This document shows, piece after piece, positions 4,557 through 34,351 of a stretch of DNA of 64,000 bases. Positions within the stretch are counted from its first letter, which is position 1; each line of letters opens with the position of its first letter. Both the position numbers and the translations under genes were made by a program. The DNA comes from Pseudomonas sp. LS44 (GTDB lineage: Bacteria; Pseudomonadota; Gammaproteobacteria; Pseudomonadales; Pseudomonadaceae), in contig NZ_CP102830.1 of NCBI RefSeq assembly GCF_024730785.1, forward strand, positions 3,758,001-3,822,000. Reading direction: 5' to 3'. The notes under the pieces were generated by a model. The model saw only the letters and a program-made list of their open reading frames with translations, did no database searches and was not told the origin of the DNA.

Positions 4557-6293
4557 ATGCGTCGTCTGCTGCCCCTTCTGCTGCTCCTGCTCGCCCTACC
4601 CGCCGCCGCCGGCCTGTTCGACAAGCGTCCCAACCCGGAGCTGGGCGGGCAACTGAACAACAGCGCCGATTTCTTGCCGGTGCGCGAGGCGTTTCGCCTG
4701 AGCCTGGTGCAGAGCACACCACAGTCGCTGAAGCTGCGCTTTGTCGCCGCCGAGGGCTACTACCTGTATCGCCACCGCTTCCAGTTCCGCGTCGAGCCTA
4801 CCGATCTGGCGGGCGGCGCGGTGCAGCTGCCGCCGGGCGAAGCCAAGCACGATCAGTATTTCGGCGACGTCGAGGTCTATCACGGTGTGCTGGATATCGA
4901 TGTGCCGCTGAACAATCCCTACAACCTGCCGATCAACCTGCAGGTGACCTACCAGGGCTGCGCCGACAAAGGCCTCTGCTATCCGCCGGAAACCGAGCGT
5001 CTGGATATCGGCGCACCGCCCAGTCCGGCTGGCCCGAGCAGCACAGAGGAAGGCACCTGGACCTGGCATGCGCTGGCACTGTTCTTTCTCGCCGGCCTGG
5101 GCCTGACGTTCACTCCGTGCGTGCTGCCGATGCTGCCGATCCTGTCTGGCGTGGTGTTACGCGGGCAGGTTGGCGGACTGCGCGGCTTGAGCCTGTCGCT
5201 CGCCTATGTGCTGCCGATGGCCGCCTGCTTCGCTCTGCTCGGGGCGCTGATGGGCGTGTTCGGCGCCGAGCTGAATCTGCAGGCACGCCTGCAATCACCG
5301 TGGGTACTGGTGCCGTTCGCGGCCTTCTTCGTGGTGTTTGCCCTGGCCATGTTCGGCGTCTTCGAGCTGCGCCTGCCGCGCCTGATCAGCGAGCCACTCG
5401 ACCGCCTGGCCGGCAACGCGCGCGGCGGTTCGCTCTGGGGTGCAGCGCTGCTCGGCGTGCTCTCCAGCCTGCTGGTCTCGCCCTGCGTCTCGGCGCCGCT
5501 GGCGGGTGCCCTGCTCTACATCGGCGCCAGCGGTGATGCGCTGGGTGGCGGCCTCAAGCTGTTCGCCCTGGGCCTTGGCATGGGTGCGCCACTGGTGCTG
5601 TTCGCCACCGGCGGCGGCGCCTTGCTGCCGAAATCCGGCAACTGGCTGCTGACCGTGCGCAACACCTTCGGCGTCTTGCTGCTGGCGGTCGCGGTGTGGC
5701 TGCTCGAGCGGGTACTGCCCGGCCCGCTGGCCTTGGCGCTGTGGGCGACGCTGGCTGCCGGCAGCGGCTATTTCCTCGCCCGCCGCGGTCGCCTGCGTTT
5801 GGGCCTCGGCCGGCATGTCAGCCTGCTCGCCGCCGCGCTGCTGCTTAGTTATGCGGTGAGCGCGGCGGTCGGCGCGGTGCGCGGCGGCTCCGATCCGCTG
5901 CGCCCATGGAGCGGCGCCCTGGCCACCGGCGAATGGGTGACTCTGGACAGCGCCAGTGAGCTGGACAGCGCCCTGGCGCGGGCCAAGGCTGCCGGCCAGC
6001 CGCTGCTGCTCGACTGGTACGCCGACTGGTGCATCAGCTGCAAGGTCATCGAACGCGAAGTGTTCGGCACCGAGCAAATCAAGGCGCAACTCACCGGCTA
6101 TCGCTTGATCCGTTTCGACATCACCGCCAGCACCGCCGAACAACGCGCCGTGCTCGACCGTTACAAACTGTTCGGTCCACCGGCGGTCTTGTTGTTCGAC
6201 GAAAAGGGTGACGAGCGCAGTGATTTGCGTGTCGTAGGTGAGATCGATGCAGCGGCGTTCAGTGCACGCCTACAGAAAGCCGCCGATCGGTAA
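4557..6293 (+). CDS. dsbD: Thiol:disulfide interchange protein DsbD (DipZ)
   Basis: A 578-residue inner-membrane reductase that carries electrons from cytoplasmic thioredoxin to periplasmic DsbC/DsbG and cytochrome c maturation. A signal peptide (MRRLLPLLLLLLALPAAAG) leads into the periplasmic alpha domain (cysteine pair in GCADKGLC). The membrane beta domain follows, with cysteines in FTPCVLP and SPCVSAP. The C-terminal thioredoxin-like gamma domain has WCISC (Cys492/Cys495). All three redox pairs are present, so the protein should be functional. The ATG at 4557 is chosen because it begins the signal peptide; an in-frame ATG at 4524 would add a hydrophilic leader. The next gene is aroQ, 109 nt downstream. 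Confidence 0.96.
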   Translation: MRRLLPLLLLLLALPAAAGLFDKRPNPELGGQLNNSADFLPVREAFRLSLVQSTPQSLKLRFVAAEGYYLYRHRFQFRVEPTDLAGGAVQLPPGEAKHDQYFGDVEVYHGVLDIDVPLNNPYNLPINLQVTYQGCADKGLCYPPETERLDIGAPPSPAGPSSTEEGTWTWHALALFFLAGLGLTFTPCVLPMLPILSGVVLRGQVGGLRGLSLSLAYVLPMAACFALLGALMGVFGAELNLQARLQSPWVLVPFAAFFVVFALAMFGVFELRLPRLISEPLDRLAGNARGGSLWGAALLGVLSSLLVSPCVSAPLAGALLYIGASGDALGGGLKLFALGLGMGAPLVLFATGGGALLPKSGNWLLTVRNTFGVLLLAVAVWLLERVLPGPLALALWATLAAGSGYFLARRGRLRLGLGRHVSLLAAALLLSYAVSAAVGAVRGGSDPLRPWSGALATGEWVTLDSASELDSALARAKAAGQPLLLDWYADWCISCKVIEREVFGTEQIKAQLTGYRLIRFDITASTAEQRAVLDRYKLFGPPAVLLFDEKGDERSDLRVVGEIDAAAFSARLQKAADR

Positions 6294-20717: not shown

Positions 20718-20788
20718 GTAGGAGCGAATTCATTCGCGATATAGGCATTACGCGAGTCGCCCCGGCTCGCGGATAAATCCGCCCCTAC
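20718..20788. repeat. Palindromic intergenic repeat, family C (copy 2)
   Basis: Arms GTAGGAGCGAATTCATTCGC and GCGGATAAATCCGCCCCTAC lie between retS and the MarC-family gene, 12 nt after the retS stop. Confidence 0.85.
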
Positions 20789-21518: not shown

Positions 21519-21606
21519 GTAGGGTGGGTTGAGCACAGCGATACCCGCGCGGTTGGATTGTGATGGGTATCGCTACGCTCAGACTGCGCGTCCCGACCCA
21601 TCCTAC
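21519..21606. repeat. Palindromic intergenic repeat, family A-related (copy 1)
   Basis: Arms GTAGGGTGGGTTGAGCACAG and CTACGCTCAG...CCCATCCTAC enclose GCGATACCC/GGGTATCGC. It belongs to the GTAGG(G/T)TGG...ATGCCCAAC superfamily that also flanks the RAYT gene. It lies between the MarC-family gene and the urtA promoter. Confidence 0.8.
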
Positions 21607-23246: not shown

Positions 23247-23375
23247 GTAGGTTGGCGCTGAGCGCAGCGATGCCCAACAAGGAACCGCTCGCGGTTCCCG
23301 TGGTGGCCGCCGGCAACCCTGCCGGTCCCTCCGGACCGGTTGTTGGGCATCGCCTTCGGCTCAGCGCCAACCTAC
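23247..23375. repeat. Palindromic repeat doublet, family A (copy 2)
   Basis: A 32-nt arm beginning GTAGGTTGGCGCTGAGCGCA and ending GATGCCCAAC (23247-23278) faces an inverted arm (23342-23375) ending CTCAGCGCCAACCTAC. The arm is nearly identical to those flanking the RAYT gene. It lies in the urtA-urtB gap. Confidence 0.88.
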
Positions 23376-23427
23376 CTCTGCTGCCCCACGTGAACCTCGC
23401 TCCACGAGATAGCCATGCCACAGGACC

Positions 23428-23479
23428 GTAGCCCGGATGTAATCCGGGAATAACCGATCCCGGATTGCATCCGGGCTAC
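23428..23479. repeat. Palindromic intergenic repeat, family B (copy 2)
   Basis: Arms GTAGCCCGGATGTAATCCGG and CCGGATTGCATCCGGGCTAC flank a short centre, ending 30 nt before the urtB start codon. Confidence 0.85.
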
Positions 23480-23509
23480 GACGCTAGCGGCGACCTGAAG
23501 GACCTTGCT

Positions 23510-27045: not shown

Positions 27046-27120
27046 GTAGGTTGGCGTTGAGCGCAGCGATACCCAACATGGCATATCCGCATGGGTATCG
27101 CTTCGCTCAACCCATCCTAC
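27046..27120. repeat. Palindromic repeat doublet, family A (copy 3)
   Basis: Arm 27046-27077 (GTAGGTTGGCGTTGAGCGCA...ATACCCAAC) faces the inverted arm 27091-27120 (ATGGGTATCGCTTCGCTCAA...CATCCTAC), starting 13 nt after urtD. Confidence 0.85.
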
Positions 27121-27133
27121 GAAATGAGATTTT

Positions 27134-28983: not shown

Positions 28984-29019
28984 TCCGGCTACTCCGCTCC
29001 CGGATTGCATCCGGGCTAC
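28981..29019. repeat. Family B half element after ureD
   Basis: One complete arm (CCCGGATTGCATCCGGGCTAC) and a decayed second arm (TAATCCGGCTACTCCG). It overlaps the ureD stop codon, so the repeat contributes the gene's last base pairs. Confidence 0.7.
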
Positions 29020-29039
29020 GAGCCGCTACCGACGAACCT

Positions 29040-29108
29040 GTAGGAGCGAATTCATTCGCGATCATCGGCGCCACCGAACCGCCCCATCGCGAATGAATTC
29101 GCTCCTAC
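29040..29108. repeat. Palindromic intergenic repeat, family C (copy 3)
   Basis: Arms GTAGGAGCGAATTCATTCGC and GCGAATGAATTCGCTCCTAC form a near-perfect inverted pair, ending 19 nt before ureA. Confidence 0.88.
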
Positions 29109-30466: not shown

Positions 30467-32167
<1,701 letters not shown>

Positions 32168-32219
32168 GATCGTGCAAACGAGCCCTTGCTCGTCTGTCGA
32201 GCGAGGGCGGCGGTGTCTT

Positions 32220-32328
32220 GTTGGGCATCGCTTCGCTCAGCACCAACCTACGTCGAGGTCGGCCTGCTGGATTCGCGAGGTGAGGAGATCGCCTTGGTAG
32301 GTTGGTGCTGAGCGCAGCGATGCCCAAC
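32220..32328. repeat. Family A repeat doublet, left flank of the RAYT unit
   Basis: Inverted arms 32220-32251 (GTTGGGCATCGC...CAACCTAC) and 32297-32328 (GTAGGTTGGTGC...GCCCAAC) are separated by a 45-nt spacer starting GTCGAGGTCGGCCTGCTGGA. The right-flank copy (32931-33039) has the same 109-bp length, orientation and a related spacer. Confidence 0.92.
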
Positions 32329-32407
32329 ATGTAGGCCTGCCGCTGGGGATCACCTCCCCGATTGACTTACACTCTCACCGGTTGCACTCACACCAAGGAT
32401 GGTGGCT

Positions 32408-32905
32408 ATGCGGTATCGACGCGCCTATGTGCCGGGCGGCACATTCTTTTTTACGGTCAACCTGGCTGACCGTTCGCAAACCCTCTTGACCGACCATATC
32501 GATGCGTTGCGCGCTTCGGTACGCCATGTGCGTTCACTGCATCCGTTCGAGATCCTGGCGATGGTGGTGTTGCCGGATCACTTGCATGCGCTCTGGCGAC
32601 TGCCGGAAAACGACACCAATTACCCGCTGCGCTGGTCGTTGATCAAGGCCGGTTTCTCCCGTGCCATCGGTCACTTGGAAACCGTCACGCTGTCACGCCG
32701 GCTCAAGCGCGAGCGCGGCATTTGGCAGCGGCGTTATTGGGAGCACCAGATCCGCGATGAGCAGGACCTCGCGCGGCATATCGATTACATCCATGGCAAT
32801 CCGCTCAAGCATGGCTACGTAAGCCGCGCCGTGGATTGGCCGTATTCGTCGATTCACCGCTATGCGCGCGAGGGGGTGGTGACGCCGGATTGGTCTGGAG
32901 GTTGA
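32408..32905 (+). CDS. REP-associated tyrosine transposase (RAYT, Y1 transposase)
   Basis: A 165-residue IS200/IS605-like single-domain transposase. The HUH metal-binding motif is in LPDHLHALWRLP, and the catalytic tyrosine is in HIDYIHGNPLKHGYV. RYRRAYVPGGTFFFTVNL is the typical RAYT N-terminus. The ATG at 32408 has AAGGATGG upstream; an in-frame ATG at 32399 is possible. RAYTs are single-copy enzymes that process REP hairpins and are thought to disperse them. Here the gene is flanked by two 109-bp doublets of a repeat found at several other sites in the window, so its substrate is probably that family. No frameshift or loss of active-site residue is seen. Confidence 0.93.
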   Translation: MRYRRAYVPGGTFFFTVNLADRSQTLLTDHIDALRASVRHVRSLHPFEILAMVVLPDHLHALWRLPENDTNYPLRWSLIKAGFSRAIGHLETVTLSRRLKRERGIWQRRYWEHQIRDEQDLARHIDYIHGNPLKHGYVSRAVDWPYSSIHRYAREGVVTPDWSGG

Positions 32906-32930
32906 AAACCAGGGCGCCCCGCGTCATCGC

Positions 32931-33039
32931 GCTGGGCATCGCTGCGCTCAGCGCCAACCTACGTCGAGGTTGCCCTGCTGGATTTACGGTGCAGGGATGC
33001 AACTCTGGTAGGTTGGTGCTGAGCGCAGCGATGCCCAAC
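32931..33039. repeat. Family A repeat doublet, right flank of the RAYT unit
   Basis: Inverted arms 32931-32962 (GCTGGGCATCGC...CAACCTAC) and 33008-33039 (GTAGGTTGGTGC...GCCCAAC) flank a 45-nt spacer starting GTCGAGGTTGCCCTGCTGGA. It is a diverged direct repeat of the left flank. Confidence 0.92.
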
Positions 33040-33083: not shown

Positions 33084-33389
33084 CTACTCCAACTGGAATC
33101 TATCCAAACGCTGCCGCAACCGGCGGTTCTCTGCGCGCAACTGCTCCAGCTCATCGAGCAGATTCAACGCCAAGGCGATGCCCGCCCACTCGATATCCAG
33201 ATCCCGGCGCATCCGCGCTGCGCGTTTGGCAATCGCCAGCGCAGCGGCATCGAACAACCACTCCTCCGGCAACCTGCCGCGCGGCTCGACAATCCCATGC
33301 TCGACGATCTCGTAGACGTAGTCGGTGGAGAGTTCGGCGCACTGGCAGAACTCCTGCAAATTGAACTGGATGATCAAACGGCTGGCCAT
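33084..33389 (-). CDS. cbpM: Chaperone modulatory protein CbpM
   Basis: A 101-residue specific inhibitor of CbpA that blocks both its co-chaperone and DNA-binding activities. It has a MerR-like helix-turn-helix region (EFCQCAELSTDYVYEIVEHG) and a C-terminal coiled coil (LLDELEQLRAENRRLRQRLD). I chose the ATG at 33389, which shares its A with the cbpA stop (TGATG) and has GGAGGAG upstream, over an ATG at 33404 inside cbpA. Translational coupling would keep inhibitor and target in step. Confidence 0.93.
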   Translation of the reverse strand: MASRLIIQFNLQEFCQCAELSTDYVYEIVEHGIVEPRGRLPEEWLFDAAALAIAKRAARMRRDLDIEWAGIALALNLLDELEQLRAENRRLRQRLDRFQLE

Positions 33390-34351
33390 CAGCGGCTCCT
33401 CCATTCGGCGCGGGGATCGAAGGCGGCGTGCTCAGCCAGTTGCTGCCAGAGCTGCCGGGCCTGCTCGTCGCCGTGCGCGGGAATGACAATTTTGAACAAC
33501 GCGTACAGATCGCCGCGCTCACCGAGTTTGTTGACCAAGCCTTTGCCTTTGATCCGCAGCCGCTGGCCGCTTTGGCTGTTGGCCGGGACGGTCAGGTTGA
33601 TCGTGCCGTCCAGGGTCGGCACCGCGACCTTGGCGCCCAGCGCCGCTTCCCAGGGCGCCAGCGGCACGACAATGATCAGGTTGTGTGCCTCCACATCGAA
33701 CAGCGGGTGCGGCACCAGGCGGATGATCAGGTACAGGTCGCCCGGCGCACCGTCGCCGAAACCCGGCGCGCCCTGGCCTTTGAGCCTAATGCGCTCGCCA
33801 TCAGTGACCCCGGCGGGAATCTTCACCTTCAAGGTCTTGCTCAGCGGCGCCAGTGGCTGGCCATCGGCACTGTATTGCGGCAGCTGGTAAGCGACCTGCT
33901 TGGCTTCCTCGGCGAGGGTGTCCTCGAGGAAGATCGGCAGCTCCATCTCCACATCCTGGCCGCGATGCGCGCTGCGGCGCGCGTGACCCTGCGGCCCCTG
34001 CGAGCGCCCGCTAGCGCCAAAGATGGACTCGAAGAAGTCGGAAAAATCCCGCCCACCACCACCGAATTCGTCGGCATAGCCGCCGGAACTGCGCGACTGC
34101 CAACCGGGCGGTGCCTCGAAGGGTCGGCCCTGCTGGGCATAATTGCGCAGCTCATCGTATTCGGCGCGCTTCTCGGTGTTGCTCAACACCTCATAGGCCT
34201 CGGCCACTTCCTTGAAACGATTCTCCGCGTCCGTCTCCTGGCTGACGTCGGGGTGATATTTGCGCGCCAGCTTGCGATAGGCGGTCTTGATCGCCTTGCT
34301 GTCGGCGTCCGCTGCAACGCCGAGAACCTGGTAGTAATCCTTGAAATCCAT
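33389..34351 (-). CDS. cbpA: Curved DNA-binding co-chaperone CbpA
   Basis: A 320-residue DnaJ-like protein. The J domain ([20 protein letters not shown]...) has the HPD motif at 33-35 that stimulates DnaK. A G/F-type linker follows, and then two beta-barrel substrate-binding domains ending in [19 protein letters not shown]. There is no cysteine-rich zinc domain, which separates it from DnaJ. It is cotranscribed with cbpM and divergent from an Hsp70-family gene across 199 bp (34352-34550). Confidence 0.95.

Follow-up and report, generated by a model that had tools for sequence, protein, structure and literature searches.

The stretch analysed here (the window, 64,000 nucleotides from the 4.46-Mb, single-contig genome of Pseudomonas sp. 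LS44) carries a gene for a REP-associated tyrosine transposase (RAYT, or TnpAREP; REP, repetitive extragenic palindrome) at 32399..32905 on the plus strand, encoding 168 amino acids from the first ATG of its open reading frame or 165 from a second ATG at 32408. It lies downstream of ureC (urease alpha subunit, 30467..32167, plus strand), which is its upstream neighbour in relatives as well, and is flanked by two 109-bp direct copies of a REP doublet placed 711 bp apart. Taking the GTAG tag as the head of each REP, the order is a minus-strand arm (32220..32251), a 45-nt linker (32252..32296), a plus-strand arm (32297..32328), the gene, a minus-strand arm (32933..32962), a second 45-nt linker (32963..33007) and a plus-strand arm (33008..33039). 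In the 5′ doublet, arms of 33 nt (32219-32251 and 32297-32329) are 97% complementary and 45 nt apart; in the 3′ doublet the values are 30 nt (32933-32962 and 33008-33037), 97% and 45 nt, and the inner arm is without the final AAC present in the other arms. The two linkers, read in the plus direction, share 82% identity. Each doublet is a head-to-head (tag-to-tag) junction and the gene sits between two heads-outward REPs, forming a REP-RAYT-REP core at 32297..32962 (plus strand) whose tags point outward, the right end reading CTAC. The gene is flanked by two inverted GTAG-tagged REPs, as in a REPtron, and both the coordinates and the anatomy of the intact RAYT between two 109-bp doublets hold as they were first described from the sequence.

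The encoded protein matches NCBIfam NF047646 ('REP-associated tyrosine transposase') with 199 bits against a cut-off of 80, scores 21.8 against Pfam Y1_Tnp, slightly below the cut-off of 23, and aligns with E. coli TnpAREP (4er8) at E 1e-41 over residues 5-167. His61, His63 and Tyr130 align with the E. coli enzyme and are invariant across six aligned RAYTs, bearing out the original prediction of a Y1 transposase, that is, a Y1 HUH domain with the HUH motif and the catalytic tyrosine. Group 2 enzymes, the E. coli type, carry a C-terminal extension of about 20 residues that includes helix alpha5. The window RAYT is aligned through E. coli residue 152 and ends one residue after its equivalent, whereas E. 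coli TnpAREP has a tail past that point; the last 13 residues or so are absent and, judging by the alignment, helix alpha5 may be kept. G160 and E161 of the E. coli tail contact the GTAG tag, and removal of the last 13 residues is reported to give activity above wild type (PMC8266576; here and below, comparisons with the literature draw on the accessible parts of the papers cited). We surveyed this tail in 128 RAYTs, 115 of them readable at that point and 13 not: the tail has at least 8 residues with GE or GD in 88 of the 115 and at least 8 without either in 18, and is shorter than 8 in nine, including the window RAYT and that of G266, the genome with the closest RAYT found. Since the tail is the rule among surveyed RAYTs, it was most likely lost in the lineage of the window RAYT. 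REP copy numbers in the window genome are not high. The site also provides natural protein pairs in which the final residues of the tail are present or missing.

The REP that flanks the gene is repeated throughout the genome. A genome-wide count, proposed with the original prediction as a check, found 48 occurrences of the 30-nt arm within three mismatches and none for a reversed-pattern control, so its repetition is not due to chance. The stretches of the window genome that were fetched hold 49 arms at 41 sites, comprising 33 of type A1, 15 of type A2 and one other. Inverted partners were sought within 125 nt at a threshold of 30 with shuffled flanks as control; the latter scored 29 and 30 at the 99.9% level, with maxima of 31 and 32, in two genomes, meaning that a few chance pairs are possible. 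An inverted partner accompanies 25 of 29 dispersed A1 arms (tail-side for 20 and head-side for 5, with none for the remaining four), while the four A1 arms at the RAYT have a partner on the head side only. The best match to the tail-side partner was a longer arm (A1′) in nine cases, A1 in nine, and A2 and family B in one each. The dispersed copies of family A thus occur mostly as two inverted REPs separated by a short spacer, as do REPINs (REP doublets forming hairpins; Bertels and Rainey 2011, PMC3116915), with the differences that the 109-bp doublets at the gene are joined tag-to-tag, the reverse of what most dispersed pairs show here, and that many pairs have two unequal arms. A2 arms are mostly paired with family B arms (tail-side, 7 of 9 in the window genome and 23 of 28 in G266).

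In G266, family B REPs flank another RAYT (L078), whose lineage is not represented among the three RAYT matches of the window genome. This bears on the arm relatives originally listed within the window. The arm at 23247-23278 and its inverse at 23342-23375 stand, forming a dispersed family A REPIN with tags outward (23247..23375, tail-side partner score 50), and the repeat at 27046 is a near relative (A2) that pairs with a family B arm in a composite REPIN (27046..27122, tail-side partner score 60). The repeats at 21519 and 27983, together with one arm of the 27046 pair, belong to the other family, as B-type REPs flank L078 in G266. When folded as DNA, the REP arm leaves GTAG unpaired and has a one-sided bulge, 4 nt long in the inner 5′ arm (z -1.9, with 8 of 200 shuffles equally good, which is weak evidence), in agreement with the irregular, GTAG-preceded hairpin of group 2 TnpAREP systems. 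In length, tag and irregular stem the arms resemble the REPs of E. coli TnpAREP (PMC8266576; PDB 4er8), whose lengths are 35, 29 and 37 nt; the 32-nt arms fall within this range, and the suggestion that they are longer than typical REPs was not upheld. We also considered the A1 to A2 difference as a compensatory stem change at positions 12 and 26 and dropped this idea, since the predicted DNA fold leaves both positions unpaired.

Repeat and enzyme were then compared across the genus. At one mismatch or fewer, the arm occurs 29 times in the window genome, once in G082 and not at all in 97 other congeners, and no RAYT match above 59% identity was found outside the window genome among the matches listed for these 99 genus genomes (own included). 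An exact 26-mer of the arm is present in 6 of 398 genus genomes: 26 times in the window genome, 5 in G266, 2 in G123, and once each in G180, G242 and G318. The best RAYT identity is 93% in G266, 68% in G123, 58% in G180 and 34% in G242, while G318, whose assembly is only 87% complete, yielded no RAYT; besides the window genome, G266 alone among the carriers has a RAYT above 70% identity. The strict arm is therefore nearly private to the window genome and to G266, which has the closest RAYT, supporting the predicted association of the RAYT with a cognate REP. The window genome has three RAYT or RAYT-like genes in all, each flanked by its own repeat; the repeat differs both at the second RAYT (NF047646, 194 bits) and at a distant RAYT-like gene that matches part of the query at 31% identity. 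At the orthologous RAYT of G123 (68%, ureC site) a different REP was found, an outcome named beforehand as one that would speak against the pairing; it corresponds to the known co-divergence of REPs and RAYTs as 'orthogroups' (PMC3686654). The same source describes REP abundance as tracking the cognate RAYT, though not without exceptions, and the distribution seen here fits that pattern.

The direct 109-bp copies on both sides of the gene, 711 bp apart, would be expected if doublet, RAYT and doublet formed an 820-bp transposon moving as one unit, as originally proposed; we regard this as highly improbable. The gene is single-copy in the window genome and keeps a constant place behind ureC in several species, unlike an autonomous insertion sequence (IS) with several copies or variable places, and neither a second copy nor a relocated whole unit was found. 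We searched for the full-length doublet in eight genomes, scoring 40 first-look candidates in each (40 of 111 in the window genome) and all candidates only in G180 and G242. Within this scope it occurs twice in the window genome and once in G266, always at the RAYT, and was not found in the six other genomes. The 5′ doublet is moreover missing in G266. The doublet on its own was likewise rejected as the spreading unit, given that at full length it was found only at the RAYT and that dispersed copies mostly face the opposite way; it is not a dispersed, amplified unit in the manner of a REPIN.

Comparison of the window locus with that of G266, both in single-contig genomes, revealed two differences centred on the doublets. 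The gene and its flanks are collinear, whereas the 3′ linker is inverted in place: it shares 60% identity with its G266 counterpart in the plus direction and 89% in the minus direction, and the 3′ doublet as a whole matches in minus at 94.4% over 108 nt (blastn). In addition, G266 has no doublet at the place corresponding to the 5′ doublet, which occupies 32221..32331 in the window (boundaries by eye).

On a wider scale, the direction of the gene itself varies. A RAYT lies directly behind ureC at 20 distinct loci, co-directed with it at 6 and opposed at 14; among 17 ureC loci from genus genomes, a RAYT follows ureC within the stretch read at 5. The window genome, G266, L074/L099, L097 and L137 read ureC plus, RAYT plus and a dksA-like gene minus, some with cbpM between (in the window, the downstream neighbour is a cbpM-like gene at 33084..33404 on the minus strand, 101 bits, under the curated cut-off of 138), and L102, L103, L105, L112, L119 and L210 read ureC plus, RAYT minus and dksA-like minus. 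One site carrying different REPs in different species is familiar from the orthogroups and 'orthoswitch' of Nunvar 2013 (PMC3686654) and from the local synteny of RAYTs (PMC3390384); here the site additionally holds the gene in both orientations.

The clearest breakpoints come from the P. oryzihabitans group, in which G473 (locus L224) reads ureC plus, RAYT plus and a symporter gene minus, and G459, G466, G506 and G418 read ureC plus, RAYT minus and symporter minus. In all four comparisons with G473, the flanks adjoining the segment are collinear at 89-95% identity (81-88% farther out) and a 715-746-bp segment comprising the RAYT and REPs aligns in minus with 83.9-85.5% identity, its REP ends alone matching in plus as well. 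Collinearity stops at 4843 of oriented L224, right after a REP at 4810-4841, and resumes at 5739, 5741, 5883 or 6021, at or no more than 7 nt from a REP. The sister species G402 and G452, in a stretch read without ureC, keep the RAYT-symporter relation of G473, indicating that the flip is derived, and it amounts to one change on the tree. L224 also holds, between ureC and the RAYT (4848-5134, ureC forward), five direct 39-40-nt REPs 62 bp apart.

Two orientations at a repeat-bounded gene could in principle be assembly errors, and both G473 (L224) and L095, a locus taken up below, are indeed drafts, with Ns near the L095 locus. We nevertheless consider this explanation extremely unlikely: G459 and G506, of the opposite orientation, are single-contig assemblies and show the same arrangement as G466 and G418; the orientation of G473 recurs in G402 and G452; and the window genome and G266, whose 3′ linkers run in different directions, are each assembled as a single contig. 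A second alternative is that RAYTs inserted independently into a hot spot behind ureC. A distant RAYT lineage with another REP (GTAGGGCGGGTGAAACCCGCC) does occupy the equal place behind ureC in L175, L176 and L181, and the two main ureC-site lineages are not grouped on the free tree. Constraining 20 rows to form a single clade costs 12 log units and is not rejected (approximately unbiased test, p-AU 0.344), a result that speaks neither for nor against grouping the main ureC-site rows. The flipped RAYTs of the P. oryzihabitans group are, however, 88-92% identical sisters of the unflipped one, with common neighbours on both sides and related flanking repeats. Independent insertion may apply to the deeper split, given the distant lineage at the site, and as an account of the two orientations we judge it unlikely. 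On the ureC-site tree, drawn without L175, L176 and L181 and with L208 and L212 added by their relation to the symporter, two changes of orientation are needed, including the change in the P. oryzihabitans group.

A comparable situation exists at a nifE site (nifE, 720 bits), where L095 is flipped relative to L098 and L200; against L098, the flanks match in plus at 93% and 90% and the RAYT segment in minus at 83%. This inversion is weaker than the P. oryzihabitans-group case. When orientation was scored by pairs among 124 distinct RAYTs, 50 pairs were two-sided collinear and 23 two-sided inverted; these 73 pairs are not independent and, as they share loci, the tally is not a count of events.

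Collectively, the alignments demonstrate both RAYT directions at one site, breakpoints at REPs, inversion of a linker and a doublet present or absent between relatives. On this basis we think it likely that the locus is a group 2 (E. coli-type) REPtron with its cognate REP that has been rearranged in place through the bracketing REPs, which lie in both directions. It is a known kind of system and a REP-bracketed RAYT is an ordinary arrangement. In the model we propose, the single-copy RAYT behind ureC would act in trans on single-stranded GTAG-tagged REP hairpins and maintain the A1 family of the genome, as suggested by co-occurrence and by what has been published on the biochemistry of relatives. 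On either side of the gene, the bracketing REP and one more REP, placed tag-to-tag with it at a distance of 45 nt, make up a 109-bp doublet, and the doublets would be an array at the gene resembling a bacterial interspersed mosaic element (BIME), not the dispersed unit. Rearrangement in place would most likely arise by recombination, or by template switching, from one REP copy to another in inverted orientation, and nicks made by the RAYT at the tags might assist it. Ling and Cordaux 2010 (PMC3004938) reported an IS that inverts naturally between inverted ends of 23 bp, suggesting that short REPs are sufficient in principle. That process is alike in flipping a segment in place through its terminal inverted repeats; the elements concerned are multi-copy and reside in Wolbachia, whereas here a single-copy RAYT is inverted at its REPs.

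Alternatively, the RAYT may catalyse the flips itself, the REP-bounded segment being excised as a single strand and reinserted at its own REPs. The breakpoints lie at the presumed substrate of the enzyme, E. coli TnpAREP is able in vitro both to cleave REP strands and to recombine them (PMC8266576), and the doublet is present or absent between relatives. The data are, however, equally compatible with homologous recombination, for which 23-bp repeats are enough in the case of IS inversion (PMC3004938), and we hold catalysis by the RAYT to be quite unlikely.

Several observations weigh against an in-place rearrangement of a RAYT locus with its cognate REP. No standing inversion polymorphism was seen among the genomes compared, with one genome per species, and the RAYT of the window itself was not seen flipped. 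The distant lineage in L175, L176 and L181 implies that RAYTs may have been drawn to the site behind ureC independently of one another. One flank of L095, a draft, contains 50 Ns, and in G266 the missing doublet is not the only difference in the sequence from ureC to the RAYT. The link between repeat abundance and enzyme holds for the strict arm only: looser matching gave 76 BLAST matches in G318, where the RAYT was not found, and 53 in G123, although both strands of one arm can count, and the near-arms of G318 are mostly 94-97% identical among the matches listed. Abundance of family A in relatives lacking the RAYT, the other outcome named beforehand as adverse, was accordingly seen in part, in the 87% complete G318 assembly. 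Finally, G266, with its 93% identical RAYT, is poor in A1 arms (A1 accounts for 7 of its 39 pattern matches and A2 for the other 32), compared with 28 A1, 13 A2 and one other among 42 in the window genome by the same pattern.

With respect to earlier descriptions, the REPtrons of Nunvar 2010 (PMC2817692) share the inverted REP flanks of the RAYT, BIME-like neighbours (in one third of their cases) and dimorphic REPs, and the accessible parts of that paper do not mention gene inversion, unlike the inverted RAYTs here. More generally, we found no description of in-place inversion of a RAYT gene in the accessible parts of the RAYT and REP literature, and those parts treat the REPs beside a RAYT as flanks; here they are also breakpoints. 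The present site bears on how REPs spread and on why RAYTs stay single-copy for so long, being one at which the gene stays while hairpins, linkers and even gene direction change. A very doubtful further reading is that RAYT loci are reversible switches, with REP recombination flipping the gene with or against the upstream operon, here urease, and turning read-through on or off; in that case the REPs would govern their own enzyme, one that in this instance is also without the tail thought to restrain it.

Some smaller features of the region deserve mention. The minus strand at 30614-30899, antisense to ureC, matches the Rfam 5′ ureB small RNA (118 bits, cut-off 40), which is probably coding-sequence homology, not a demonstrated RNA. 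A further palindromic repeat (GTAGCCCGGATG...) lies at 23427-23480 and 28998-29020 and was not seen in the flanking sequence inspected around the genome's three RAYT matches, and GTAGGAGCGAATTCATTCGCGAT repeats at 20718-20740 and 29040-29108 are of the type flanking the distant RAYT-like gene at C1:2187459-2187728. In L097, read by eye from the flank, the stop codon of the RAYT apparently lies within the GTAG tag of the next REP.
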